64,000 nt of DNA, taken from the NCBI GenBank assembly GCA_021738725.1, contig JAIPBE010000010.1:1-64000 (forward strand), written 5' to 3'. A program made the position numbers and the translations under genes. Of the stretch, positions 3,834 through 28,209 are shown piece after piece; within the stretch, counting starts at the first letter, position 1, and each line of letters begins with the position of its first letter. The stretch comes from Saprospiraceae bacterium (lineage in GTDB: Bacteria; Bacteroidota; Bacteroidia; Chitinophagales; Saprospiraceae). A model generated the notes under the pieces. That model searched no databases. It was not told the origin of the DNA and was given only the letters and a program-made list of their open reading frames with translations.

Positions 3834-4241
3834 ATGAGAAATCACATTATCCCTGCTATCGTTGCCGGTGTCGTATTGCTCATCCTCAGCGTGGCTACGC
3901 TGTATGGATTGGTCGCCCTGTTTCCCGGGTTGGCTCAGGAGTATTACAACCCCATCTTCCGCGCGGAAGATGACCGGAACTGGATGTATTATGTGCATCC
4001 GTTTATCCTCAGCTTCGCACTCGCCTGGTTTTGGGATCGGTTCAAAGAAAAATTCTCAGGCTCCTGGATCCTTCGCGGACTCGAGCTTGGACTGGTCTAT
4101 GTGATCGTCGCGACCATACCGGTGATGTGGATCACGTTCAGTGCCATCGACGTGGGTGCTTCCATGGTCATGACCTGGATCGCCTACGGATTTGCACAGA
4201 CCACCGTTGCCGGTTGGATCTTCGCCAAAATGAATCCATAG
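3834..4241 (+). CDS. small four-helix membrane protein, unknown
   Basis: 135 residues with four hydrophobic segments (about 6-30, 53-68, 82-104 and 108-130) separated by short charged loops, one of them WDRFKEKFSG. I do not recognise the family. The signal-like first helix has no cleavage site, so an inner-membrane protein is likely. The ATG at 3834 follows the helicase terminator by 28 nt, so the gene must have its own promoter, although no clear TAnnTTTG box is visible. Coding is supported by the regular pattern of helices and loops. Confidence 0.75.
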   Translation: MRNHIIPAIVAGVVLLILSVATLYGLVALFPGLAQEYYNPIFRAEDDRNWMYYVHPFILSFALAWFWDRFKEKFSGSWILRGLELGLVYVIVATIPVMWITFSAIDVGASMVMTWIAYGFAQTTVAGWIFAKMNP

Positions 4242-4388
4242 GAGGCGAATGCAGCCCTGTCTGGACTATATTGACCGGCACTCTGGCCCCCAGAGTCGCC
4301 TGTCGATCTATCTGCATACCATGTTTGCGCCATACGGAGTTGGTGCAAATTGGGTATCTCATGAACTTCCATTCTTCTAGGGAAAGAA

Positions 4389-4640
4389 ATGGATCTGTTA
4401 CCTCCATGTACTCCGGACGGGAGTGTCAAGGTCGGGTTTACCCAAGGCAATGAGTTGTCGAATCGGCTTGGATTGTTCGCATCCAAGGGCAGGAAGCAGG
4501 TGCTGAGCGTCACCTTTCAAGTATTGGATGATGTTCCTGAAGCGGCGCTATGGGAAAGCGATATCGAAGCGTTGGCACTGGATCTGCAGTCCAGTCCGTA
4601 TGAAAGGTGGTTGGGACAGGAAGGCGACGCGATCAAATGA
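4389..4640 (+). CDS. hypothetical 83-residue protein
   Basis: Small ORF starting with ATG after a purine-rich agggaaaga. Its stop directly abuts the stop of the convergent superoxide dismutase gene. The product has balanced composition, no signal peptide and no membrane segment. I recognise no domain. It could be a real small gene or a chance ORF in an otherwise empty 400-bp gap. Bases 4242-4388 show nothing else. Confidence 0.35.
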   Translation: MDLLPPCTPDGSVKVGFTQGNELSNRLGLFASKGRKQVLSVTFQVLDDVPEAALWESDIEALALDLQSSPYERWLGQEGDAIK

Positions 4641-5348
4641 TCAACCGAAGAGGGTATTGACCCGTTCCCAGTTGACGACGTTCCAGAAGGCGCTGATATA
4701 GTCACTCCGCTTGTTTTGATAGTGGAGGTAGTAAGCGTGCTCCCAGACATCCAGGCCAAGGATGGGTATCCCGGTTTTATCGGTGATCTTCGTCATCAGG
4801 GGGTTATCCTGATTCGGAGTGGAAGTGATGAACAAGCCACCTGCCCCGTCCTTGCAAAGCCAGGCCCATCCGGACCCGAATCGACTTCCTGCGGCATCCG
4901 CAAACGCCTTCTTGAATGTATCCATATCACCCCATTCCCGTTGAATGGCGGCAGTCAGTCGTTCGCCGGGTTGTGTTTTTTTCGGGGTCATCCATTCCCA
5001 GAACATGGTGTGATTCCAATGACCACCTCCGTTGTTGCGCAAGGCCGTGTCCCCCGGTTTGATGGTGGCCAGCAGTTTTTCCAATGAAAGGCTTTGCAAG
5101 TTGAGATGGGGCTCCAGCGCAGTGTTGAGTTTGGTCACATATCCCTTATGGTGCCGATCATGATGAATCTCCATCGTTTTGGCATCAATGCTTGGTACCA
5201 GATCCGCGAAACCATAAGCCAAGTCCGGAAGAGCATAGGGGTAGCGACCCATAGAAGCGGCACCAACCATCGTTTTTAAGGGCGAACATCCCACAAGTGT
5301 TCCTGCTCCAATAATTCCTGAAAGTTTTAAAAATGTGCGCTTTTCCAT
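4641..5348 (-). CDS. exported superoxide dismutase (Fe/Mn family)
   Basis: 235-residue superoxide dismutase. Metal ligands are visible in MEIHHDRHH (His62), GGHWNHTMFW and the signature DVWEHAYY. The GGHxNH context and NQDNPLM resemble the manganese-type subgroup. Unlike cytoplasmic SODs it begins with an export signal: KRTFLK is twin-arginine-like and LVGC (Cys21) is a lipobox, so it is probably a lipoprotein or periplasmic enzyme guarding the envelope against superoxide. The ATG at 5348 was chosen because the signal starts there and a promoter box lies 15 nt upstream; the longer upstream frame has no support. Confidence 0.93.
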   Translation of the reverse strand: MEKRTFLKLSGIIGAGTLVGCSPLKTMVGAASMGRYPYALPDLAYGFADLVPSIDAKTMEIHHDRHHKGYVTKLNTALEPHLNLQSLSLEKLLATIKPGDTALRNNGGGHWNHTMFWEWMTPKKTQPGERLTAAIQREWGDMDTFKKAFADAAGSRFGSGWAWLCKDGAGGLFITSTPNQDNPLMTKITDKTGIPILGLDVWEHAYYLHYQNKRSDYISAFWNVVNWERVNTLFG

Positions 5349-5363
5349 GGTTTGATCTTTCTT

Positions 5364-5371
5364 CCAAGGTA
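5364..5371 (-). promoter_or_regulatory. promoter -7 box for superoxide dismutase
   Basis: On the minus strand the sequence reads TACCTTGG, one base off TAnnTTTG, ending 15 nt before the SOD start codon. Confidence 0.45.
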
Positions 5372-5470
5372 CAACAAATGAGACCGCCTCAGGGTTTTCC
5401 GAGACCTTGGAATTCGTAGAGATGGTTTGGGGAGGCGTACAATGTGACGGAATTTCCGATCTTGACTTCG

Positions 5471-6688
5471 ATGAGCAATGCGATCTATTTTCTTCCATTC
5501 GTTTTCTGTTTATGGATGACCAGTCCGCTCCAGGAGCCAGGGTTGACGACCGCTCAGCCGGGATTGGCTGACAACCACTATTATTCAGAGATCCCCTTCC
5601 GCATGGAGCGGGGAAAGATCCTGGTGACCGTCCGGATAGGGAATGCTGATCGCACATTCCTGGTAGATACGGGTGCGCCTTTTATGGTGGATGTTGCACT
5701 GGCTGAAGAAATGGGGTATACCGTTGTCGGTTCGAAGGGATTGAAAGATGCAGCAGGGAACACCACGCGGGTGAACACCCTCGAGGTGCCAGAGCTGGTG
5801 CTCGGAGAAGTGCGCTTTTCGAATTTGCACGCTCTGGTGTATGATTTTCACAACAGCCTGTTGGGATGCTTCGGGATCGATGGTATCATCGGCAGCAATC
5901 TGTTGAGTAAAAGTGTGATTCAGTTTGACTGGAAGGCCGGAAGAATGATCTTGACGGATGATGCTCATCGGCTGGGACTGGAGGTCGCGGAATCGATCAA
6001 GATCCGTGTCGATAAAAAGCAATCCAGCCCCTATGTACCGGTCCGGTTACAAGAAAGAATCAGGATCTGGAGCTTGCTTGATACGGGCTCGGACGACTTC
6101 TATACGATCAGTCAGCAGGATCTCGCGGCTGTTCAGGCGAAAGGACATCTGACGGCTGCGCCATTATCACAGGCTTCCGGAAGTGCCTCCCTGGGATTGA
6201 TCGGGGGGAATGATTCGGACAAAGAACTGCTCATTGATGCTGGTTCACTCGCGTTGGAGCAGGTCCGCGTGGCGGCAAATGTCGCCATTGAATCCAATCA
6301 GGATCAGGACTCCCGGCTTGGGACTCAATTGCTGGAGCGAGGCACCCTGACCATCGATTACAAAAAGAGACGCGTCTGGTTTGTCCCCTATCCGGATTTG
6401 CCAGACTACCAGTACAGTCAGTTTGGATTGGGCTTTGTTCCGGTAGGGGATTACTGGATCATCAAGGAAGTCTGGTCGGGATCGGAAGCAGCAGAAGAGG
6501 GTGTCGTCAATGGGGATACGCTATTGCATTACGGGCGCATTGACATGACTGCGAACAGTGTTTGTGACGTCTTGTTCCAGCTGCCAGCAGAAAGAGAAGC
6601 AGACAGTTTACAGGTGGTGGTCAAGCACGTACATCCCGGAGAAGAGAGAGGTTATACCTTGAAAAAACGGGTTTATTCAGGCGATTGA
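5471..6688 (+). CDS. secreted retropepsin-like aspartyl protease with PDZ domain
   Basis: 405 residues. An N-terminal hydrophobic signal (residues 1-22) is followed by two pepsin/retropepsin half-domains, each with a catalytic motif: VDTGAPF (Asp66) and LDTGSDD (Asp204). A C-terminal PDZ-like domain (about 320-395; contains GSEAAEEGVVNGDTLL) follows. Single-chain retropepsin-like proteases with PDZ domains are common, mostly uncharacterised envelope proteins in Bacteroidota. The ATG at 5471 is preferred over a GTG in frame at 5444 because it places the signal peptide at the N-terminus. The 3' end overlaps the convergent glycosyltransferase gene by 16 nt. Confidence 0.88.
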   Translation: MSNAIYFLPFVFCLWMTSPLQEPGLTTAQPGLADNHYYSEIPFRMERGKILVTVRIGNADRTFLVDTGAPFMVDVALAEEMGYTVVGSKGLKDAAGNTTRVNTLEVPELVLGEVRFSNLHALVYDFHNSLLGCFGIDGIIGSNLLSKSVIQFDWKAGRMILTDDAHRLGLEVAESIKIRVDKKQSSPYVPVRLQERIRIWSLLDTGSDDFYTISQQDLAAVQAKGHLTAAPLSQASGSASLGLIGGNDSDKELLIDAGSLALEQVRVAANVAIESNQDQDSRLGTQLLERGTLTIDYKKRRVWFVPYPDLPDYQYSQFGLGFVPVGDYWIIKEVWSGSEAAEEGVVNGDTLLHYGRIDMTANSVCDVLFQLPAEREADSLQVVVKHVHPGEERGYTLKKRVYSGD

Positions 6689-12678: not shown

Positions 12679-14493
12679 ATGCAATCCATCCGCAACATCG
12701 CCATCATCGCCCACGTCGACCACGGGAAGACCACCCTCGTCGACAAGATGCTCTTCGCAGGCCATTTTTTCAAAGAGCACCAGGAAGTTGGTGAGCTGGT
12801 CATGGACAACAATGACCTCGAGCGGGAGCGTGGGATTACCATTCTGGCCAAAAACGTGGCCATGATGTACAAGGACACCAAGATCAATATCATCGATACA
12901 CCAGGTCACTCCGATTTTGGTGGTGAGGTTGAACGTGTACTGAACATGGCGGATGGCGTTCTCCTGCTGGTGGATGCATTCGAAGGACCTATGCCCCAGA
13001 CACGTTTTGTTCTGGAAAAGGCGCTCGAACTGGGACTCAAGCCCATCGTGGTCATCAATAAAGTGGACAAAGAAAACTGTACACCCGACGAAGTCAATGA
13101 CGAGGTGTTCGAGCTGATGTTCAATCTGGAAGCGACCGAGGAGCAGCTGGACTATCCGACGATCTTTGGCTCAGCCAAGCACGGCTGGATGAGTACCGAC
13201 TGGAGGACCCCGACTGATAATGTCACGGCCCTGCTCGATGCAATCGTCGAACATGTCCCACCACCGGTGGCAGAGGAAGGAACTACTCAGATGTTAGTGA
13301 CTTCGCTTGATTTCTCTTCCTATGTCGGCCGGATCGCCATCGGTCGCTTGCACCGTGGAGAATTGAAGGACGGTCAGCAGATCGCGCTGATGAAGAAGGA
13401 CGGAACGATCCAGAAACAAAAAATGCGCGGCTTGTTCGTGTTCTCCGGATTGGAAAAGGTCAAAGCCGATGTAGTGAAAGCTGGTGATATCTGTGCGATT
13501 GTCGGGATCGAAGGCTTTGAGATCGGAGATACCATCGCAGATCCGGAGAATCCGGAGGCATTGCCGACCATCGCTATTGATGAACCGACCATCAGCATGA
13601 CGTTTACGATCAATGACAGTCCGTTCTTTGGTCAGGATGGCAAATTCGTCACCTCCAGGCATGTCAAAGACCGGTTGTTCAAAGAATTGGAAAAAAACCT
13701 GGCCCTTCGTGTTGAAGAAACGGGTACTGCGGATTCCTTTATCGTATATGGCAGAGGCGTGCTCCACCTCTCCGTACTGATCGAAACCATGCGTCGGGAA
13801 GGGTATGAATTGCAGATCGGCCAGCCTCAGGTCATCTTCAAGCGAATCGATGGTGTGAAATGCGAACCGATCGAGGATCTGCGGATCGACCTGCCCGAGA
13901 ATGTGGCAGGTAAGGCCATCGAGATGGTCACCAAACGGAAAGGCCTCATGCTGGAAATGATTCCGAAAGGCGATCGGATGTTGTTGAAATTCGAAATTCC
14001 TTCACGGGGCATCATGGGCCTTCGTTCCAGCTTATTGACAGCCACGGCAGGAGAGGCGATCATGAATCACCGATTCAAGGATTACCAACCCCACAAAGGA
14101 GATATCCCGGGCCGCCAGAACGGCTCCCTGATCGTGATGGAGACCGGCACGGCTATTCCATTTTCATTGAATAATCTCCAGGATCGTGGATTCTTCTTTA
14201 TTGGCCCTGGCGAAGAGATCTATGAAGGCCAGGTGATTGGGGAGAACACCCGGATCGGTGACCTGGTGGTGAACGTCACCAAAACGAAGAAGCTCAGTAA
14301 CATGCGCTCCTCCGGGAATGATGACAAGGTCAAGCTGGCACCGCCGTTGAAGATGACATTGGAGGAAGCACTCGAATACATCCAGGAGGATGAATATGTA
14401 GAAGTGACCCCCAAATCTATCCGCCTGCGGAAGATATTCCTGAAGGAGCATGACCGGAAGCGGGCAAAGAACTCTTCTATGGCCGGGGCATAG
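12679..14493 (+). CDS. typA: translational GTPase BipA/TypA
   Basis: 604-residue ribosome-associated GTPase of the EF-G superfamily that helps 50S assembly and stress adaptation. The G domain starts at once with [17 protein letters not shown]; the switch [18 protein letters not shown] and the NKVD specificity motif follow. Domain II, the EF-G-like domains and the BipA C-terminal domain complete a full-length protein. It has its own consensus promoter. Confidence 0.97.
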
Positions 14494-21978: not shown

Positions 21979-22758
21979 TCAGTGAATCAAGTTTGCCATC
22001 CAGTACCAGAAACTGCCCAACTGGTTGTTCAGAGATTTGGCATCGCCTTGGTGAGCTGATCGAGGGTTAGCAAGGATACTGTCGAGGTCTTGTTTGATGT
22101 TGGTAACTGGAAACTCTAGGTTCAATTTACACAGGACAGTGTTCCAACGAAGATCGTCTGCAAAGTCGAAAGGATCGTTCGCAGGAATGGTATTGAACAG
22201 TTCCAGTGCATCCTGAAATTGTCCGTTACGGAACATCGCATAGCCTTTCAGATAAACGAGGTTGGACTGTTCGGGTTCAATACGCAATTTGTCTTCCAGT
22301 TGTATTAGTGCCAGATCGGACTGCCCGTCTTCAATCAGAAGGATAATAAATTGCAAAGAACTGGCCGCGACGGAGTTTTCGCCACGCAGAGCACCGGTAT
22401 ATGGGATGGCCACAGCGTCTGAAAAGTCGGCAACGATATCGGAGTGGTTATATCCTCCTTGAGCAGCAAAGACAAGGGCGCCTGTCACAATGATGACCAG
22501 GCTGATTGCTGCTATCAATGCCACCCGTTTTACAGAGTACAGGGGGCTAATTGTTCGGACAGGCGTGTCAGCGAATTTTTTTCGCAGGTCCTGAGCAATA
22601 GAATATTCCATGAGTGCAGCCACCAGTTGACGGTCGACCTGTTCCATGTATGCTTCCGGATTGTTCTGGAGCCAATGGTGTAGATCTGCGATCTCTGCGT
22701 GGGTCAGTCGACCTTCTTCCCAGGCATCCAATTGTTGATGTAATGTTTCCACATTCAT
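21979..22758 (-). CDS. membrane TPR protein, probable anti-sigma partner
   Basis: 259 residues: a cytoplasmic N-terminal domain of ~85 residues (MNVETLHQQLDAWEEGRLTH, resembling the zinc-finger-less N-terminus of FecR-like anti-sigma proteins), one membrane helix (about 80-100), and an outer TPR-like part containing YLKGYAMFRNGQFQDALELF. Its ATG overlaps the stop codon of the upstream sigma-factor gene by 4 nt, so the two are translationally coupled. The role as an anti-sigma factor is inferred from this arrangement and topology. Confidence 0.75.
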   Translation of the reverse strand: MNVETLHQQLDAWEEGRLTHAEIADLHHWLQNNPEAYMEQVDRQLVAALMEYSIAQDLRKKFADTPVRTISPLYSVKRVALIAAISLVIIVTGALVFAAQGGYNHSDIVADFSDAVAIPYTGALRGENSVAASSLQFIILLIEDGQSDLALIQLEDKLRIEPEQSNLVYLKGYAMFRNGQFQDALELFNTIPANDPFDFADDLRWNTVLCKLNLEFPVTNIKQDLDSILANPRSAHQGDAKSLNNQLGSFWYWMANLIH

Positions 22759-23342
22759 AGACTTTGCTTTAGAATCCGTTCAATCTCCGGATGTTCTTGA
22801 ATGAGTTTTGCCAATTTTTTTGTGCACTGATATTTCAGCTTTCTCGCCATCATCTCACTGCTCAGATCAAGCATCTCGGAGATATCCTGCATGTTGGTGC
22901 GTTCCTGCCATAGTTGCAAGATGCGTATGCATCGAGAATCGAGCTTGATTATGAATCCCTGCAATAGTTGAGCGCGTTCCTGATCCATGAGCCAATGGTC
23001 TGGTCCGGGCACCTGGGCTTTCAAAATGTGGTCAGTTGCGGTTGTTTCCGGCTCTGTGCGCTTTCGCTTGCGAAGTTGATTCAACCAACACATTCGAGCT
23101 ATTCCGCAGAGGTAGGCAGGTAGTGTGCCCTTATGAACATATTTCCCATGCCGAATATTTCGGTCCATAATGATGATGCTTTCCTGATACATGTCCTCAG
23201 CATCCTGGATGTTACCACGCATCTTTAATATGGTACTGAAAACGGCCTTGCGTATAGCATGTTCTTGATAGATTGATGTCAACGCCTCTTGCCTGCCACA
23301 TCCTCCAGCCTTGATCTGGCCAATGATCTCCTCTTGTTCCAT
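22755..23342 (-). CDS. RNA polymerase sigma factor, ECF-like
   Basis: 195 residues. Region 2 includes NIQDAEDMYQESIIIMDRNI and LPAYLCGIARMCWLNQLRKR (core-binding and -10-recognition helices). Region 4 is a HTH around TNMQDISEMLDLSSEMMARK. It should direct RNA polymerase to a small regulon, held in check by the coupled membrane protein. The sequence departs from classical ECF sigmas, so sub-group assignment is open. A TATCTTTT box ends 5 nt before its ATG. It is divergent from the CHAT operon. Confidence 0.85.
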   Translation of the reverse strand: MEQEEIIGQIKAGGCGRQEALTSIYQEHAIRKAVFSTILKMRGNIQDAEDMYQESIIIMDRNIRHGKYVHKGTLPAYLCGIARMCWLNQLRKRKRTEPETTATDHILKAQVPGPDHWLMDQERAQLLQGFIIKLDSRCIRILQLWQERTNMQDISEMLDLSSEMMARKLKYQCTKKLAKLIQEHPEIERILKQSL

Positions 23343-23347
23343 AGGTG

Positions 23348-23355
23348 AAAAGATA
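23348..23355 (-). promoter_or_regulatory. -7 box 5 nt before the sigma-factor start
   Basis: The minus strand reads TATCTTTT, ending 5 nt before the start codon at 23342. A TTTG stands 24 nt further upstream, a plausible -33 element. Confidence 0.5.
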
Positions 23356-23426
23356 CACCGGAATCATGAAATCTGCGCTCAAAGACCTTCTCATTTCCAA
23401 CGGTGAAGTCCAAGAATGTGACTCCC

Positions 23427-23447
23427 ATTCGAAATATAATTTCGAAT
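23427..23447. promoter_or_regulatory. perfect inverted repeat between divergent operons
   Basis: Arms ATTCGAAAT and ATTTCGAAT flank a 3-bp ATA spacer. The 21-bp site lies in the 172-bp gap between the divergent sigma-factor and CHAT operons, 85 bp from one start codon and 68 bp from the other. The geometry fits a dimeric regulator's operator. No TAnnTTTG box is seen for the rightward operon, so it may depend on the neighbouring sigma factor (inference). Confidence 0.55.
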
Positions 23448-23514
23448 TTTACTCAAGTTTGGTAACACTCACCCAACTAACAACATACTACAGTACAACC
23501 AAAACTAGAGTACG

Positions 23515-24345
23515 ATGAAGACCAAATTCTCATGGGGAGGGATTACCTTGTTGGTAACCATGCTTTTAGCTCTTACAAGCAGTAAAGTGCTTGAGAATTT
23601 ATACCACACATTCAGTGACGAGGCAAACGTTACCGAGGACAATCACTACTATACCGAAGTTGGCATCCGGGCTGAGTACATTCGGGCCAGGTGCCGAAAG
23701 GTCTGTTTGGATGGTTTATCCAGTGGAAGCACCTTACTTGCCCTGCCTACTGGGGTTGTGTTGAAAGGACCTATGGATGAACAGCGGTTTGATGAATGCA
23801 TCCTGATTTGCAATGAACAGTCAGAGTTGTCGCCTGAATTTATCGCTTTGGAGCGGAGCCACTTGCAGACAGCCCTAGACTTGGGTCAAAATAAGGTAGA
23901 GCCGTTGTCCAACAAGTTTATCATACTTGCCTATCTCCCTCTTTTTACTTGGGATATTGTTGTACCATTGATGGTTCCTACCAATCCGCCTATCGGAGGG
24001 GGCGACTGTGGGTTATCTACTTGTCTAGGACATGTACATATCACACGGACCTCTATGGAGGACAACTATTTTCGTGTGATTGCTGCAGTGCCCGATTCAA
24101 GTATTACCACAAATATGGCTATAGAAGATGATGCCGGGACAGTATTGAAGGATATGGAGACAGAACCAGAATATTTGTCGGGAGGATATCGTCAAAGCAA
24201 GATTGCCTGGGATCAACTTTGTTCCCCCAGTCTGGAAATGCAGTCATTGAAGCTTCGCGTAACACGTTATTCTATAAGTGGTGATTCCGCTATCAATAGT
24301 ACCTGGACACCTATTTGGTTCAATTCAATTTGCACGGGTGAATAA
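23515..24345 (+). CDS. secreted or membrane-anchored protein, unknown
   Basis: 276 residues. An N-terminal hydrophobic segment (about 8-26) is a signal peptide or anchor. The rest is outside: two Cys-containing segments (RCRKVCLDG and ECILICNEQ) in the first half, a hydrophobic stretch around IILAYLPLFTWDIVVPLMVP (about 130-150), then GGGDCGLSTCLGHVHITRTS and a beta-rich C-terminal half. I do not recognise the family. It is 26 nt upstream of the CHAT gene and almost certainly in its operon, so it may be a partner or substrate of that protease-like protein. Confidence 0.75.
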   Translation: MKTKFSWGGITLLVTMLLALTSSKVLENLYHTFSDEANVTEDNHYYTEVGIRAEYIRARCRKVCLDGLSSGSTLLALPTGVVLKGPMDEQRFDECILICNEQSELSPEFIALERSHLQTALDLGQNKVEPLSNKFIILAYLPLFTWDIVVPLMVPTNPPIGGGDCGLSTCLGHVHITRTSMEDNYFRVIAAVPDSSITTNMAIEDDAGTVLKDMETEPEYLSGGYRQSKIAWDQLCSPSLEMQSLKLRVTRYSISGDSAINSTWTPIWFNSICTGE

Positions 24346-24371
24346 AAACAGAGGGAGTCTGCTTTCGAAAA

Positions 24372-27300
24372 ATGATTGATTTTGTGGCCCAATTTCCCCC
24401 TGGTATCCGGATCCCTTTCCTGGTGCTGGGGGTCTTTTTTTCTGGACAGTCTATTGCGCAGCATAGTAATGTTCACGTACCTTCTGTTCAGGATGCACTG
24501 ACTCGGATAGAGTTAGCTCGCCAGGCGGGCGATTGGAATGAGTACCATTCAGAGTTCTTGGGATTAGTTCGCCGTCCGGTCACTCTGGAGCAAGACAGAA
24601 TGGCAAAAGCAAGAGGCATTTTGATGGAACTGGATGCGTTGAAAAGTTCGGATAGCGGGCAATCTGAATTTGATTACATCCTGTATTGTCTCCAACAGTT
24701 TCCCTTGGGAATTGCAGAAACGGATTTTCTGTCTGGAATCCTTAAAAAAGGACTGACTGATCTGTCAGCTAAGCCGGATTTGGAACAGCCCATTCGCGTG
24801 TACTATTCTTTGGCCATACCGTTTGATTATGCAAACTGGCGAAAACAAATCGGATTCTATCAGGAAGCCATTGATACTATGGAGCGGGTAAAAAACCGCT
24901 TACTGCATCTCAATCCGGAAGAAATATGGATCCCTAACACAAGAAACTTTCTGTTGCATTGTTACAATATCCTCGGGGGCATCTATGCCGATTTAGGCAT
25001 GTTTCCTGTTGCGGTTTCCTATAATGATCTCTATTTAGCGATGATCAGAAATGACCCAGATCCTTGGGGCCGGGTTTTAGCGTTGGGTCGGAAGGGAGAT
25101 TATCTGCTCAACATGGGAGACACTGTGCAAAGCCTGCGGATACTGGAAGAGGCAGTTCATATTTGTGATGAAGAATACCCCAAGGTGTTGAAAAGCGAAC
25201 TCGAAAATAGTTCGACACCTTCGAATGATTATATCCGGTATACGTCCAGGTTGAAATCGGCTTATCGAGATTTGGCCAAGGTGTGTATTGTTACTGGCCG
25301 ATTTATACGGGCTGACCAACTGTTGACCAGAGTTGAATCCATGCCATTGTTGAGTCGGGAAGATCACATTTATCAGGTCGCCCATCGTGCCGATTATTTT
25401 GCAGGTATGGGCGATCTGAGGAAGGCGATCCAGGTACTGACCCCGGGATTAAATGCTGGGCTGGACATAGGGAGAGGGAATGCAAAACAACTGGCCGTAA
25501 AAGATGATCAGAGCTTGCGTTTGGTGATGTTCGTCGGATTGAAACTGGCTCGGCTGCAAATGGATGCTAAAGAATTTGATCGAGCAGAACAAACGCTTGA
25601 TCAACTGGAGTATGAGCTCCGAATGTTGAGAAGTGACTTGCGATTAGATGGGATTCGCCTTGGCATTGAGCGGATAAGACTAGACCTGATCAGACACAGA
25701 GAGCGTCCGTCGCGTATCGATCTTGACAGTGTTTTCAAACGGGTAGCCCATACTCAGTCATTAATCCTGGAATATCAGGCCACAACAACAGATGACGCCA
25801 GTAAGCTTGCGTTGAATCGCTCAGGTCGGGAACTGTTTGGTTTGGGGTTATCTCTTGCTTCGGCTATGCCATCTGGGTTGATCCAGGATGAATTGGCGAT
25901 CCAGCAAGCTGAAGCAGGAAGAGCCGTCTTATTAGACCAGGCCCTGCGCCTTCAGCAAACAGATCGGTTTCGTGGAATTCCTGATTCCTTTCGCAATGCA
26001 ATCATCCATATGAATGCATTGATCGAAGGATATGAACTTAGACAAAGTCTGGGACAATCCTTGTCTCAACATGACCAGTCCAATCTGACCACTTTACGAG
26101 AGGATAAACGTCGTATTACGCTTGACCTGAAGAACAACTTTCCAAAAAGCTATCGCCAGGCAATGGTGAGACAGCTACCTAGAGTGGATGATATACGTAA
26201 GCAACTGCCAATTGGTGCAGGAGTGCTTTCGCTGTCGCTGTACGACACCCTGATATTTGCTCAACTCATCACGAAGACAGAATCTGCTTTTTTTCAGATT
26301 CCTGTTTCCGTGGACTTCAGAGGGCAGATCAGAGCATTCCTTCATGAATTGAATGCAAGTCGAACAGAAAATATCTCAAACCCGATCAGCCAATCGTTCA
26401 TCCATCGTTCTAGATGGTTTTACAAGTTACTTTTCGAGCCGTTTGAAGAATTGTTACCTGAACGAATCTTGATTGTGCCGGAAGGCCCTCTTGCTTTTCT
26501 ACCCTTCGATGCTTTATTGACCGATGATCCTGGTAGTCATTTGTCCTGGGCCAGACTTCCCTACCAAATCAAAAAACGAGCATTAAGTGTTCACTTTTCT
26601 GTTGGAGCATGGGTAGAGGAAGAGCAAAAACGTTTGCCTGAATTTAAAGACCAATGGATCGGATTTGCTCCAGATTTTCCGGTACCTGTGGCATCTCAGT
26701 CTGATACTGGTATGCCCAGAGATATCCTTGTCAAGTTGCTGTACAATGAGAAGGAGGTACAAAGGGTGGGTGAGATCCTGGAAGGAAAGGCCTTTTTAGG
26801 TCAGGAAGCATCTTTGGCAAACTTTCGGCAAATTGTAGGCCAAGCGTCCATTCTCCATTTGTCAACGCATGCCAAGGCGAACGATTTACATGGCGATCAA
26901 TGTTTTATCGCATTTGCCAATTCACATTCGATGGCCCCGGCAGATCCAGGCGATACCTTGCGCAGTGCTGAAATATACGGGCTAACTATCCCCGCGGAGT
27001 TACTTATTCTTTCAGCTTGTGAAACCGGTATCGGTGAAGTGAAAGATGGAGAAGGAATGATCGGATTGCACCATGCGTTTATGCATGCTGGTGTCAGATC
27101 TATTTTGTCCACATTGTGGACGGTGGATGATCGGTCTATGGCCGATTTGATCGTTTTTTTTGCAAGCATGTTGTCTGGTGGCCTTCCAAAAGATATCGCT
27201 CTTCAAAGGGCCAAACTCCAGTTTATATCTGATCATCCAACACAAGCACATCCATTCTATTGGTCTGCCCCCACGATACAAGGCAGTTTGCAACCCCTGC

Positions 27301-27395
27301 GCAAGAAGAGGTATGGATGGTATTTTCTTGGTGGGTTCCTGGTCATCGTCGTTTTAATCTTCACTTATCGGACATTTTGGAACAGAGGAGATTGA
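24372..27395 (+). CDS. exported TPR-CHAT protein (caspase-fold)
   Basis: 1007 residues. Signal peptide (about 1-32), then a long alpha-helical region of TPR-like repeats (about 40-560), then a CHAT domain (about 650-970) of the caspase/separase superfamily. The catalytic pair is intact: His833 in LSTHAKA and Cys883 in LSACETG. A single membrane helix (about 980-1000) near the C-terminus is followed by a short basic tail. The TPR and protease domains should therefore face the periplasm, anchored by their C-terminus. CHAT proteins act as regulated proteases, some in bacterial defence; a membrane-anchored exported one beside a sigma/anti-sigma pair hints at envelope signalling. Substrate unknown. 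Confidence 0.9.
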   Translation: MIDFVAQFPPGIRIPFLVLGVFFSGQSIAQHSNVHVPSVQDALTRIELARQAGDWNEYHSEFLGLVRRPVTLEQDRMAKARGILMELDALKSSDSGQSEFDYILYCLQQFPLGIAETDFLSGILKKGLTDLSAKPDLEQPIRVYYSLAIPFDYANWRKQIGFYQEAIDTMERVKNRLLHLNPEEIWIPNTRNFLLHCYNILGGIYADLGMFPVAVSYNDLYLAMIRNDPDPWGRVLALGRKGDYLLNMGDTVQSLRILEEAVHICDEEYPKVLKSELENSSTPSNDYIRYTSRLKSAYRDLAKVCIVTGRFIRADQLLTRVESMPLLSREDHIYQVAHRADYFAGMGDLRKAIQVLTPGLNAGLDIGRGNAKQLAVKDDQSLRLVMFVGLKLARLQMDAKEFDRAEQTLDQLEYELRMLRSDLRLDGIRLGIERIRLDLIRHRERPSRIDLDSVFKRVAHTQSLILEYQATTTDDASKLALNRSGRELFGLGLSLASAMPSGLIQDELAIQQAEAGRAVLLDQALRLQQTDRFRGIPDSFRNAIIHMNALIEGYELRQSLGQSLSQHDQSNLTTLREDKRRITLDLKNNFPKSYRQAMVRQLPRVDDIRKQLPIGAGVLSLSLYDTLIFAQLITKTESAFFQIPVSVDFRGQIRAFLHELNASRTENISNPISQSFIHRSRWFYKLLFEPFEELLPERILIVPEGPLAFLPFDALLTDDPGSHLSWARLPYQIKKRALSVHFSVGAWVEEEQKRLPEFKDQWIGFAPDFPVPVASQSDTGMPRDILVKLLYNEKEVQRVGEILEGKAFLGQEASLANFRQIVGQASILHLSTHAKANDLHGDQCFIAFANSHSMAPADPGDTLRSAEIYGLTIPAELLILSACETGIGEVKDGEGMIGLHHAFMHAGVRSILSTLWTVDDRSMADLIVFFASMLSGGLPKDIALQRAKLQFISDHPTQAHPFYWSAPTIQGSLQPLRKKRYGWYFLGGFLVIVVLIFTYRTFWNRGD

Positions 27396-27402
27396 TCCTT
27401 TC

Positions 27403-27663
27403 TCAAGTTCTATGTTCGTTCAAAACCTGTGAGAAGGTACATATCCGCAGGAGCCATTTAAGGATTATGGTAGCCGATCTGAGTAGTGAAATGATTCCTT
27501 GAAGGATCAACATGCCATGATTGCCATATTGAATACAATCTGATTGATCCGGCTGGCAATAGAAGTTGTAATCTGCATGAATGGAGCTTATCTGCTCCTT
27601 TATGTTGCAGATAGTCTTTACAATGAACCAAACTTTTAAGGCACCTCCACCAACCTGCTCCAT
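27403..27663 (-). CDS. possible small protein downstream of an Arg/Tyr-rich ORF
   Basis: 86-residue ORF on the minus strand with ATG start, 6 nt after the stop of the ORF at 27670-27846. It has a hydrophobic C-terminal half (MLILQGIISLLRSATIILKW). No family is recognised. It could be a membrane-associated small protein or a chance frame in the 550-bp gap behind the CHAT gene. Confidence 0.25.
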   Translation of the reverse strand: MEQVGGGALKVWFIVKTICNIKEQISSIHADYNFYCQPDQSDCIQYGNHGMLILQGIISLLRSATIILKWLLRICTFSQVLNEHRT

Positions 27664-27669
27664 CCCAAT

Positions 27670-27846
27670 CTATTGTGAGACCAATTGGCTCCACAGATCA
27701 TTAGGAAGCATCCCTTTGCGATATCCCTTGTACTCCGGATACTGCGAAGGATTATACCTGTTGGGGTTCTCCTTGCGTCGCCACCCCGATCCTGAAGATT
27801 CAGTTGTGCGTTCCCCTCCACAGTAAAAATGCCCAAGGTAAAGCAC
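27670..27846 (-). CDS. possible 58-residue basic protein or gene remnant
   Basis: Open frame without ATG; GTG at 27846 is the first candidate start. The product is rich in Arg, Lys, Asn, Pro and Tyr and contains GWRRKENPNRYNPSQYPEYK, a composition more protein-like than expected by chance. It may be a small gene or the decayed 3' end of a larger one. Confidence 0.25.
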   Translation of the reverse strand: MLYLGHFYCGGERTTESSGSGWRRKENPNRYNPSQYPEYKGYRKGMLPNDLWSQLVSQ

Positions 27847-27948
27847 TGTAAACTAGCTGGTAAGGAAAAATTATTCGAATGGGTGGTCACATTCCGCTTG
27901 GTAGCGACATTGATTTTCAGGAACCTTTGCGTCACTCAATACCTAACC

Positions 27949-28209
27949 ATGGCAGCATATCAAGCAACCCGCCTTGAACATGAACACCACAGTAGCCCAC
28001 TGCAGATATTAAAAGAAGAACACCTCTCTGAAAGGGAGCTGGAGGTCCTCGATCTGGTTGTACATGGACTCACTTCCGAGGAGATAAGCAGTCAACTGTA
28101 TATCAGTACCAGTACGGTTATCAGTCATCGAAAGAACATGCAGCGAAAAATGAATGCTCGCAATTCCGCGCATCTTGTCTTTCTGGTCTGTAAACTTGGT
28201 TTACTATAA
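27949..28209 (+). CDS. stand-alone LuxR/GerE-type HTH protein
   Basis: 86 residues that are little more than a LuxR-type DNA-binding domain: LSERELEVLDLVVHGLTSEE, followed by the recognition helix in STSTVISHRKNMQRKM. No receiver or sensor domain is present. It probably acts as a transcriptional regulator, perhaps of the adjacent CHAT/sigma locus (inference). The ATG at 27949 is chosen over 27829; AACCTTTG at 27922-27929 is a likely -7 box. An intrinsic terminator follows. Confidence 0.85.
   Translation: MAAYQATRLEHEHHSSPLQILKEEHLSERELEVLDLVVHGLTSEEISSQLYISTSTVISHRKNMQRKMNARNSAHLVFLVCKLGLL

Follow-up and report, generated by a model that had tools for sequence, protein, structure and literature searches.

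Genes and features of the locus

Our analysis concerns a stretch of 64,000 nucleotides from a Saprospiraceae bacterium (the window), in which an ORF check recovered all five ORFs of the locus exactly where an earlier note, made from the sequence, had placed them. On the minus strand lies the gene of an ECF-type sigma factor of 195 aa (22755..23342; ORF, NCBIfam and Pfam matches), which passes the cut-off of the NCBIfam ECF model TIGR02937 (47.6 bits, cut-off 42.9) and matches Sigma70_r2 with E 2.3e-7. A gene on the same strand, overlapping it by 4 bp, encodes an anti-sigma-like membrane TPR protein of 259 aa (21979..22758; ORF, domain matches, AlphaFold2 model). Domain matches and the AlphaFold2 model divide this protein into cytoplasmic helices (residues 3-64), a single transmembrane (TM) helix (76-100; 22459..22533, minus strand), a flexible linker (101-132; 22363..22458, minus strand) and a TPR domain (134-257). 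Fold searches for an anti-sigma domain matched mainly residues 124-257 and returned TPR proteins. The linker is modelled at low confidence (pLDDT about 60-82) and may be a candidate cleavage region. The description of sigma factor and membrane TPR protein as coupled genes is borne out. Since the latter follows directly after the sigma gene, has one TM segment and has its N-terminus inside, as judged from sequence features, it fits the build of a membrane anti-sigma factor and is the putative one of the neighbouring sigma factor. Of the 55 sigma genes surveyed, 52 have a homologue of it beside them, and in 46 of 50 homologues linked to a CHAT gene the N-terminal flank of the TM segment is more positive than the C-terminal one.

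The plus strand encodes a TPR-CHAT protein of 1007 aa with a signal-like N-terminus and a C-terminal anchor (24372..27395; ORF, Pfam, sequence features, model). Its CHAT domain (residues 680-972; 26409..27287, plus strand) matches Pfam PF12770 with 168.4 bits (cut-off 24; E 3e-49), and both codons of the dyad, His833 (26868..26870) and Cys883 (27018..27020), also on the plus strand, specify residues invariant in all 29 rows of an alignment. The pair, said beforehand to be intact, is kept in 122/122 CHATs checked, a count taken from an alignment because a regular-expression count had missed several proteins; such constancy points to some role for catalysis. The dyad is equally intact in CHATs unlinked to a sigma/anti-sigma pair (41/41) as in linked ones, a point against the mechanism proposed below.

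The predicted signal peptide and the C-terminal TM anchor (residues 983-1004; 27318..27383, plus strand; model helix and sequence features) are likewise family traits, given that an N-terminal hydrophobic segment is present in 46 of 50 linked CHATs and a C-terminal anchor in 43, of which 42 end in a basic tail. The anchor count uses a cut-off of 1.3, at which 26 of 40 unlinked CHATs are anchored too; it replaced a cut-off of 1.6, which misplaced proteins anchored by eye and at which pair-linked proteins made up 38/67 'anchored' and 11/26 'unanchored' CHATs, with no apparent difference. The anchor was dropped as a marker of linkage. Because N-terminal segments, anchors and basic tails recur in linked CHATs, the CHAT domain and the TPR domain of the anti-sigma-like protein are predicted to be periplasmic and should both face that compartment. 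The anchor of the window's own CHAT protein, however, carries a charge of +4 before and +1 after it, the reverse of the family trend, and counts against the proposed topology.

Ahead of the TPR-CHAT gene, 23515..24345 (plus strand) encodes an exported-like protein of 276 aa that homologue comparison marks as a genus-restricted companion: among 60 relatives, just the three congeners that carry the module possess it, and C60, C95, C99, C165 and C170 are invariant in all three copies. Searches with it gave nothing better than E 0.2 in Pfam and no convincing match in the PDB (best E 0.82). A perfect inverted repeat, a possible operator, was indeed found at 23427..23447 (no strand assigned), with two 9-nt arms and a 3-nt spacer; none of these 21-bp repeats is expected from 100 shuffles of the window, and the genome holds one perfect copy. 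By eye, the closest relative keeps the right arm only and the next relative lacks the repeat. Neither the 276-aa protein, limited to 3/60 relatives, nor the repeat, reduced to a half-site in one relative and rejected as a conserved operator, belongs to the conserved core. Further towards the companion gene, GGTAACA (23461..23467, plus strand) may serve an ECF promoter as a -35-like element, and the same heptamer precedes the equivalent companion gene of locus L059. Downstream of the module there is, as claimed, a gene for a LuxR-type HTH protein (126 aa; 27829..28209, plus strand; GerE match with E 1.4e-18); in the relative L058, too, the module is followed by a similar ORF (13488-13820). Whether the LuxR-type gene belongs to the module is uncertain.

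Recurrence of the gene set in Bacteroidota

Of the 85 anti-sigma-like genes listed from 40 genomes, 47 have a TPR-CHAT gene no more than 6 kb away where 1.84 are expected by chance, a count biased upwards as the anti-sigma query was built from linked genes. The 88 neighbourhoods surveyed hold 93 complete CHATs; 49 of them have a sigma/anti-sigma pair within 3 kb, oriented towards CHAT, away from it or in the same direction, and the other 44 have none in that range. A set of named genomes, whose loci are partly the same as those of the 88 neighbourhoods, gave 33/80 linked, and all nine flavobacterial loci of the named-genome scan have the pair 0-23 bp from CHAT. Zobellia russellii (L233) and Maribacter halichondriae (L263) are examples of carriers of the compact form. 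Among loci picked across the phylum, 11/20 show sigma directly followed by an anti-sigma-like gene, and a strong relative of the anti-sigma-like protein is present in 21 of 24 genomes with CHAT vs 2 of 16 without. That these genes are mere chance neighbours in a TPR-rich genome might seem to draw on nine other CHAT matches in the same genome, of which the seven whose C-terminus is complete all lack a sigma gene in the flanks taken. Yet the 47 linkages against 1.84 expected, and the keeping of the module across families of the phylum, refute this idea. Synteny in relatives, on which the proposal had been staked beforehand, is thus present, and sigma/membrane-TPR pair plus TPR-CHAT form a recurrent set. 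We regard it as nearly certain that sigma factor, anti-sigma-like protein and TPR-CHAT protein are functionally linked and recur together.

The following counts weigh against the mechanism proposed below. Mapped onto the CHAT tree, linkage changes 23 times compared with 29 in shuffles, pointing to frequent switching; the labels count as linked L281, where sigma and anti-sigma-like genes flank CHAT on opposite sides, and L286 and L287, where the anti-sigma-like gene alone was seen beside it. When loci of the anti-sigma family were picked for lacking CHAT, 17/20 were without CHAT nearby, and the family being often without such a neighbour, it can evidently function without CHAT. At E 1e-20, up to 19 TPR-CHAT matches per genome occur in some Saprospiraceae-type genomes.

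The genes found between pair and CHAT are exported-like in 18 of 21 cases (one being itself a CHAT; background 385/737), and 17/21 are codirectional with CHAT. Type IX sorting tails were scored in 8/20 of them vs 51/787 with a model that is biased, having been seeded from those genes. Companion proteins include type IX cargo, an M23 peptidase and subtilases (the latter in L088 and L104). These counts favour an alternative in which CHAT is an output: sigma would switch on the CHAT operon, the protease would process exported companions or damaged envelope proteins, and the anti-sigma factor would sense something else. In its favour, too, GTAAC stands upstream of 25/70 sigma units vs 60/415 distant ones, and GGTAACA precedes the companion gene both in the window and at L059. 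But GTAAC shows no excess before linked CHATs (12/46, unlinked 11/35), and linked (7/29) and unlinked (4/21) genes upstream of CHAT carry type IX tails about equally often. With CHAT matching the anti-sigma-like protein more closely than it matches sigma, and with a known fusion of TPR-CHAT to an anti-sigma factor (both below), we consider this alternative unlikely, albeit the strongest of those weighed here. The side-by-side genes in many Bacteroidota suggest a widespread signalling unit, in which a protease controls a membrane-bound brake.

Relation to known CHAT and anti-sigma systems

PDB searches with a whole-protein profile were swamped by TPR matches and a single CHAT-part sequence matched nothing, which is why we used a profile of the CHAT part. 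Its best sequence match is DdvA of Myxococcus xanthus (E 2.3e-7, His and Cys kept), ahead of Csx29 (E 0.005). According to PDB titles and alignments, DdvA (8rot, 8rw5) is the transmembrane anti-sigma factor of the ECF sigma factor DdvS with TPR-CHAT at its end, of which 587 residues align with ours (Z 22.4, rmsd 5.9); PMC4374960 agrees that it serves an ECF sigma factor. Whereas DdvA joins anti-sigma and TPR-CHAT on one chain, two genes encode them here, and TPR-CHAT comes with a signal peptide and a C-terminal anchor of its own. The fusion nonetheless supports a link between CHAT and anti-sigma.

By fold, the CHAT model is best matched by Csx29 (8eey; Foldseek E 1.5e-15; Z 28.2, rmsd 6.8, 588 aligned). 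As PMC10028731 describes Craspase (type III-E CRISPR), its CHAT protease Csx29 cuts Csx30, an inhibitor of CASP-sigma, and so relieves inhibition; a TPR-CHAT protease, an inhibitor of an ECF-like sigma and the sigma itself in one locus resemble our set and, by analogy, may set a precedent for proteolysis that releases a sigma factor. Csx29, however, acts with an RNA-guided complex, whereas our CHAT protein appears exported from its sequence features, with a signal-like N-terminus and an anchor in place of the cytoplasmic location of the Craspase protein. With 11.5 bits against a cut-off of 300 for the NCBIfam Csx29 model, it also falls outside the Csx29 family.

That CHAT relatives act in CRISPR type III-E could hint at a phage-defence switch, in which infection activates the protease and sigma launches a programme of protection or suicide. 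A PADLOC 2023 search for four proteins, using models without cut-offs, gave E 0.0022 at best and no match to the 276-aa protein. Such weak matches lend no support to the defence role that had been suggested, and the predicted export of CHAT and companions such as type IX cargo, subtilases and an M23 peptidase also speak against it. We judge this reading very improbable.

DegS is a serine protease, and a caspase-fold CHAT protein would replace it here if the locus worked like RseA/DegS/RpoE of E. coli. That system, in the account of PMC10028731, likewise combines a membrane anti-sigma factor, a periplasmic first protease and an ECF sigma factor. ECF54 sigma factors have CHAT and subtilase genes in their context and, in section 3.3 of PMC8999054, are reportedly without an anti-sigma factor; here, in contrast, the sigma gene is followed by one for a membrane protein built like an anti-sigma factor. 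Our literature searches found no function for exported TPR-CHAT proteins. The locus had been called potentially undescribed; with DdvA in the PDB and CHAT near ECF54 already reviewed, this is too strong a word, and the locus is better seen as a fresh variant of a CHAT/anti-sigma wiring already known.

Partner matching and the proposed mechanism

Among paralogues within genomes, CHAT matches the anti-sigma-like protein (0.536) as tightly as sigma does (0.492; each 0/1000 permutations), while CHAT and sigma reach 0.305 (15/1000 permutations). When split by domain, sigma tracks the cytoplasmic half of the anti-sigma-like protein (0.525), which supports the putative binding and inhibition of sigma by that protein, and the TPR region of CHAT tracks the periplasmic half (0.507) rather than the cytoplasmic one (0.048; 84/1000). 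This contrast drops from 0.59 to 0.19 without genome G034, is weaker with another distance and gave no clear result over all pairs. Two observations suit another alternative: the periplasmic half is the best match of CHAT's TPR region, and DdvA retains TPR-CHAT on one chain. TPR-CHAT could then be a non-proteolytic partner whose TPR part binds the TPR domain of the anti-sigma factor and keeps or frees it through a change in conformation, with the protease acting elsewhere or on itself only. A dyad intact in every CHAT checked argues against this, and we hold it to be improbable.

A conserved Arg in the linker was considered as a CHAT-specific cleavage site and dismissed because it occurs in 37/46 CHAT-linked and 10/15 unlinked anti-sigma-like proteins; its conservation falls below 90% in a second alignment. 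Other linker motifs did not differ significantly between linked and unlinked proteins.

To our minds, CHAT probably acts on the anti-sigma factor in some way; that it cleaves the anti-sigma factor itself is a tentative step further, and direct contact between the two as well as the nature of the signal are our surmise. The single-pass anti-sigma-like protein would hold the ECF-type sigma factor through its cytoplasmic domain, while its TPR domain would lie in the periplasm. TPR-CHAT, exported and anchored through its C-terminus in the same membrane, would present its TPR and protease domains to that domain. Once an envelope signal arrives, perhaps sensed by way of the variable exported companion, the CHAT dyad would cut the periplasmic part of the anti-sigma factor, most likely in the flexible linker just past the membrane, and sigma would be freed. 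As a whole, this proposal of a three-protein envelope-signalling module of Bacteroidota, with CHAT cutting the anti-sigma factor to free sigma, strikes us as a serious possibility that falls a little short of probable. A fuller version is rather unlikely to be right in every part: a periplasmic anchored CHAT protein (separase/caspase-like) as the first-site protease, TPR docking on the anti-sigma factor, a set of paralogous channels, about ten at most in one genome, each specific for its partners and with its own exported companion as signal or cargo, DdvA as the fused form and a spread over much of Bacteroidota.

If true, caspase-like proteases would join signalling across the bacterial envelope, and the wiring of the CRISPR Craspase would exemplify a wider CHAT/anti-sigma theme. 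Between the fused DdvA and the split forms of Bacteroidota, this theme is testable in cultured bacteria.

Gene order at the locus and in the genus

The sigma/membrane-TPR pair that an earlier note had described as divergent from genes for a 276-aa protein and a 1007-aa TPR-CHAT protein is arranged in just this way in the window. Genes for an ECF-type sigma factor (195 aa, 22755-23342) and an anti-sigma-like protein that has TPR repeats and a single TM segment (259 aa, 21979-22758) overlap by 4 bp on the minus strand; diverging from them are genes for an exported-like protein (276 aa, 23515-24345) and the TPR-CHAT protein (1007 aa, 24372-27395), which are spaced by 26 bp and followed by a LuxR-type gene. 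C138 and C173 of the sigma factor are invariant in 12/12 aligned module sigma factors (window and relatives).

A CHAT orthologue was found in two of four congeners searched (56% and 39% identity), both of which have the sigma and anti-sigma-like genes together with a 276-aa relative in unchanged order; in the remaining two, neither CHAT (at E 1e-20) nor the 276-aa protein had a match. The 276-aa protein is present in 3/60 relatives, these being only the three genus genomes that have the module. Its relative in congener locus L058 (8246-9055) carries a lipobox-like LSSC behind a hydrophobic start and that in congener locus L059 a TM segment followed by a proline run, while the window protein is devoid of a lipobox-like motif.

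Linkage of CHAT to sigma/anti-sigma-like pairs in Bacteroidota

Conservation of the set, for which the earlier note had proposed a neighbourhood survey, was assessed in several samples. Among 87 CHAT neighbourhoods plus the window (7 from the same genome, 80 from relatives at the top of the match list), searched with profile models made from the module proteins themselves, 49/93 complete CHATs have a pair within 3 kb, and the anti-sigma-like gene directly follows 52/55 sigma genes. Orientation relative to CHAT was classed for 38 pairs near CHATs then considered anchored: 17 pairs are convergent with CHAT, 15 divergent from it and 6 codirectional. The reverse search (40 genomes, 127 CHAT matches) took the 85 top-ranking anti-sigma-like genes and placed 47 within 6 kb of CHAT, with 1.84 expected under uniform placement. 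Its query, built from CHAT-linked proteins, favours linked genes early in the ranking (25 of the first 28), but 10/29 of the last third are still near CHAT. A scan of named genomes (77 loci, partly overlapping with the neighbourhood survey) found the pair within 4.5 kb of 33/80 CHATs, and 0-23 bp away in 9/9 loci from Kordia, Dokdonia, Pelagihabitans, Zobellia, Aureibaculum and Maribacter, all Flavobacteriaceae, and from Tenacibaculum, a further member of that family. Finally, 20 phylum-wide loci, hand-picked from the 96/296 genomes with a strong match, comprise 11 with sigma followed by anti-sigma-like gene, one with the two flanking CHAT on opposite sides, two with the anti-sigma-like gene alone and six with neither. 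Synteny of CHAT with the pair, on which the earlier proposal hinged, is kept in both CHAT-bearing congeners and extends beyond the genus.

This linkage is labile over the CHAT tree: its state changes 23 times among 106 proteins, compared with 29.0 in shuffles (equally low in 1/500). Both partners also occur apart. Among 20 loci of the anti-sigma-like family, picked because no CHAT was listed close by, 17 have no CHAT-model match and 19 a sigma gene; L168, one of the three with a match, is TPR only by Pfam. At locus L181 (9181-10842), a subtilase with a type IX tail adjoins a CHAT-free pair, and other proteases may occupy the place of CHAT in this manner. The window genome has nine further CHAT matches; the seven of them with complete C-termini are unanchored, and their sampled flanks contain no sigma gene. 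In the same genome, a second CHAT group (contigs C28, C80, C83, C68, C105 and C12; L021-L026) has a signal-like N-terminus in most members, no C-terminal anchor and tails ending in WAGF, and its sampled flanks are likewise free of sigma genes; C68 holds two full copies and one fragment close together. The His833/Cys883 pair reported as intact aligns to His and Cys in 122/122 CHATs (52 linked, 41 unlinked, 20 phylum-set, 9 flavobacterial), with retention equal in unlinked and linked proteins.

Topology, companion genes and partner matching

By simple counts of hydrophobicity and charge, used in place of SignalP or TMHMM, 46 of 50 linked CHATs have an N-terminal and 43 a C-terminal hydrophobic segment. 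The signal peptide and anchor claimed for the window CHAT recur as such segments; its tail, however, is one of two linked exceptions to a charge trend in which the tail is more positive than the preceding stretch (36 vs 2 proteins) and net positive in 42/43 proteins with a C-terminal segment. Of 50 anti-sigma-like proteins, 46 are more positively charged on the N-terminal than on the C-terminal side of their TM segment. Given these biases, the positive-inside rule predicts that CHAT and both TPR domains face the periplasm.

Genes between pair and CHAT are exported-like in 18/21 cases (one itself a CHAT; background 385/737) and share the CHAT direction in 17/21. Their content varies by module: type IX tails alone, subtilase, M23 peptidase, FG-GAP, thiol-activated-cytolysin-like, LRR or methionine sulfoxide reductase. 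A type IX tail model matches 8/20 companions vs 51/787 other genes, a contrast inflated by seeding the model from these companions. In L085, an environmental relative, the cytolysin-like gene (4147-5973; PF01289, E 3.4e-36) sits between sigma pair and CHAT. At the surveyed loci GTAAC precedes 25/70 sigma units vs 60/415 distant units, in many cases no more than 30 bp from the predicted sigma start (e.g. GGGTAACCTTTT), possibly reflecting autoregulation or miscalled start codons; the promoter-motif search returned no motif that settles whether CHAT is a sigma target.

Partner matching compared paralogue distances in multi-module genomes (115 within-genome pairs, 46 modules), permuting partners inside genomes. 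It gave 0.536 for CHAT-anti-sigma (0/1000 permutations), 0.492 for sigma-anti-sigma (0/1000) and 0.305 for CHAT-sigma (15/1000). With the anti-sigma-like protein divided at the membrane, its cytoplasmic half is a better match for sigma (0.525, 0/1000) than the periplasmic one (0.362, 11/1000), whereas the CHAT TPR region follows the periplasmic (0.507, 0/1000) rather than the cytoplasmic half (0.048, 84/1000); the catalytic part tracks both halves (0.516 (6) and 0.307 (8)). Pairwise-score distances point the same way for the CHAT TPR region (periplasmic 0.513 (14), cytoplasmic 0.178 (133)), with the half-contrast equalled in 3/500 permutations, but over all pairs these CHAT domain-split results are not clear, and the half-contrast drops from 0.59 to 0.19 when one genome (G034) is removed. 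While joint duplication of whole modules would yield part of this signal, the matching fits docking of CHAT to the anti-sigma-like protein in the periplasm.

Fold, DdvA and a proposed mechanism

The AlphaFold2 model of the anti-sigma-like protein (mean pLDDT 88.1) comprises cytoplasmic helices (3-64), one TM helix (76-100) and the TPR domain, joined to the TM helix by a linker of lower confidence. The TPR-CHAT model (mean pLDDT 79.2) matches Csx29 (8eey, E 1.5e-15), DdvA (8rot, E 3.5e-14) and separases in fold; VIA-align 2 aligns 588 residues with Csx29 (Z 28.2, rmsd 6.8) and 587 with DdvA (Z 22.4, rmsd 5.9). A profile of the CHAT part matches six PDB sequences, DdvA (2.3e-7) and five Csx29 forms (0.005-0.007), and its alignment keeps the dyad His and Cys in DdvA. 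DdvA, from another phylum, is the cognate anti-sigma of the ECF factor DdvS (PMC4374960). It is a transmembrane anti-sigma fused to TPR-CHAT whereas the Bacteroidota set consists of separate proteins, so that the fusion provides Rosetta-stone evidence for their cooperation.

A search of the literature on CHAT with sigma/anti-sigma factors yielded Craspase papers, a CalpL paper, a conflict-system paper (PMC8195603) and a review of non-canonical ECFs, which places CHAT and subtilase genes in ECF54 context without an anti-sigma (PMC8999054). In this literature, limited to open-licence papers, the split set of Bacteroidota was not found described. CHAT would act on the anti-sigma in the periplasm, most probably by cutting linker 101-132; motif comparisons of this linker revealed no cleavage motif that backs a cut there. 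In Craspase, a CHAT protease cleaves the inhibitor of a sigma factor and so releases the factor (PMC10028731). To our minds, the most economical reading would combine this wiring with DdvA, an anti-sigma bearing TPR-CHAT, and the separate proteins of the Bacteroidota set.
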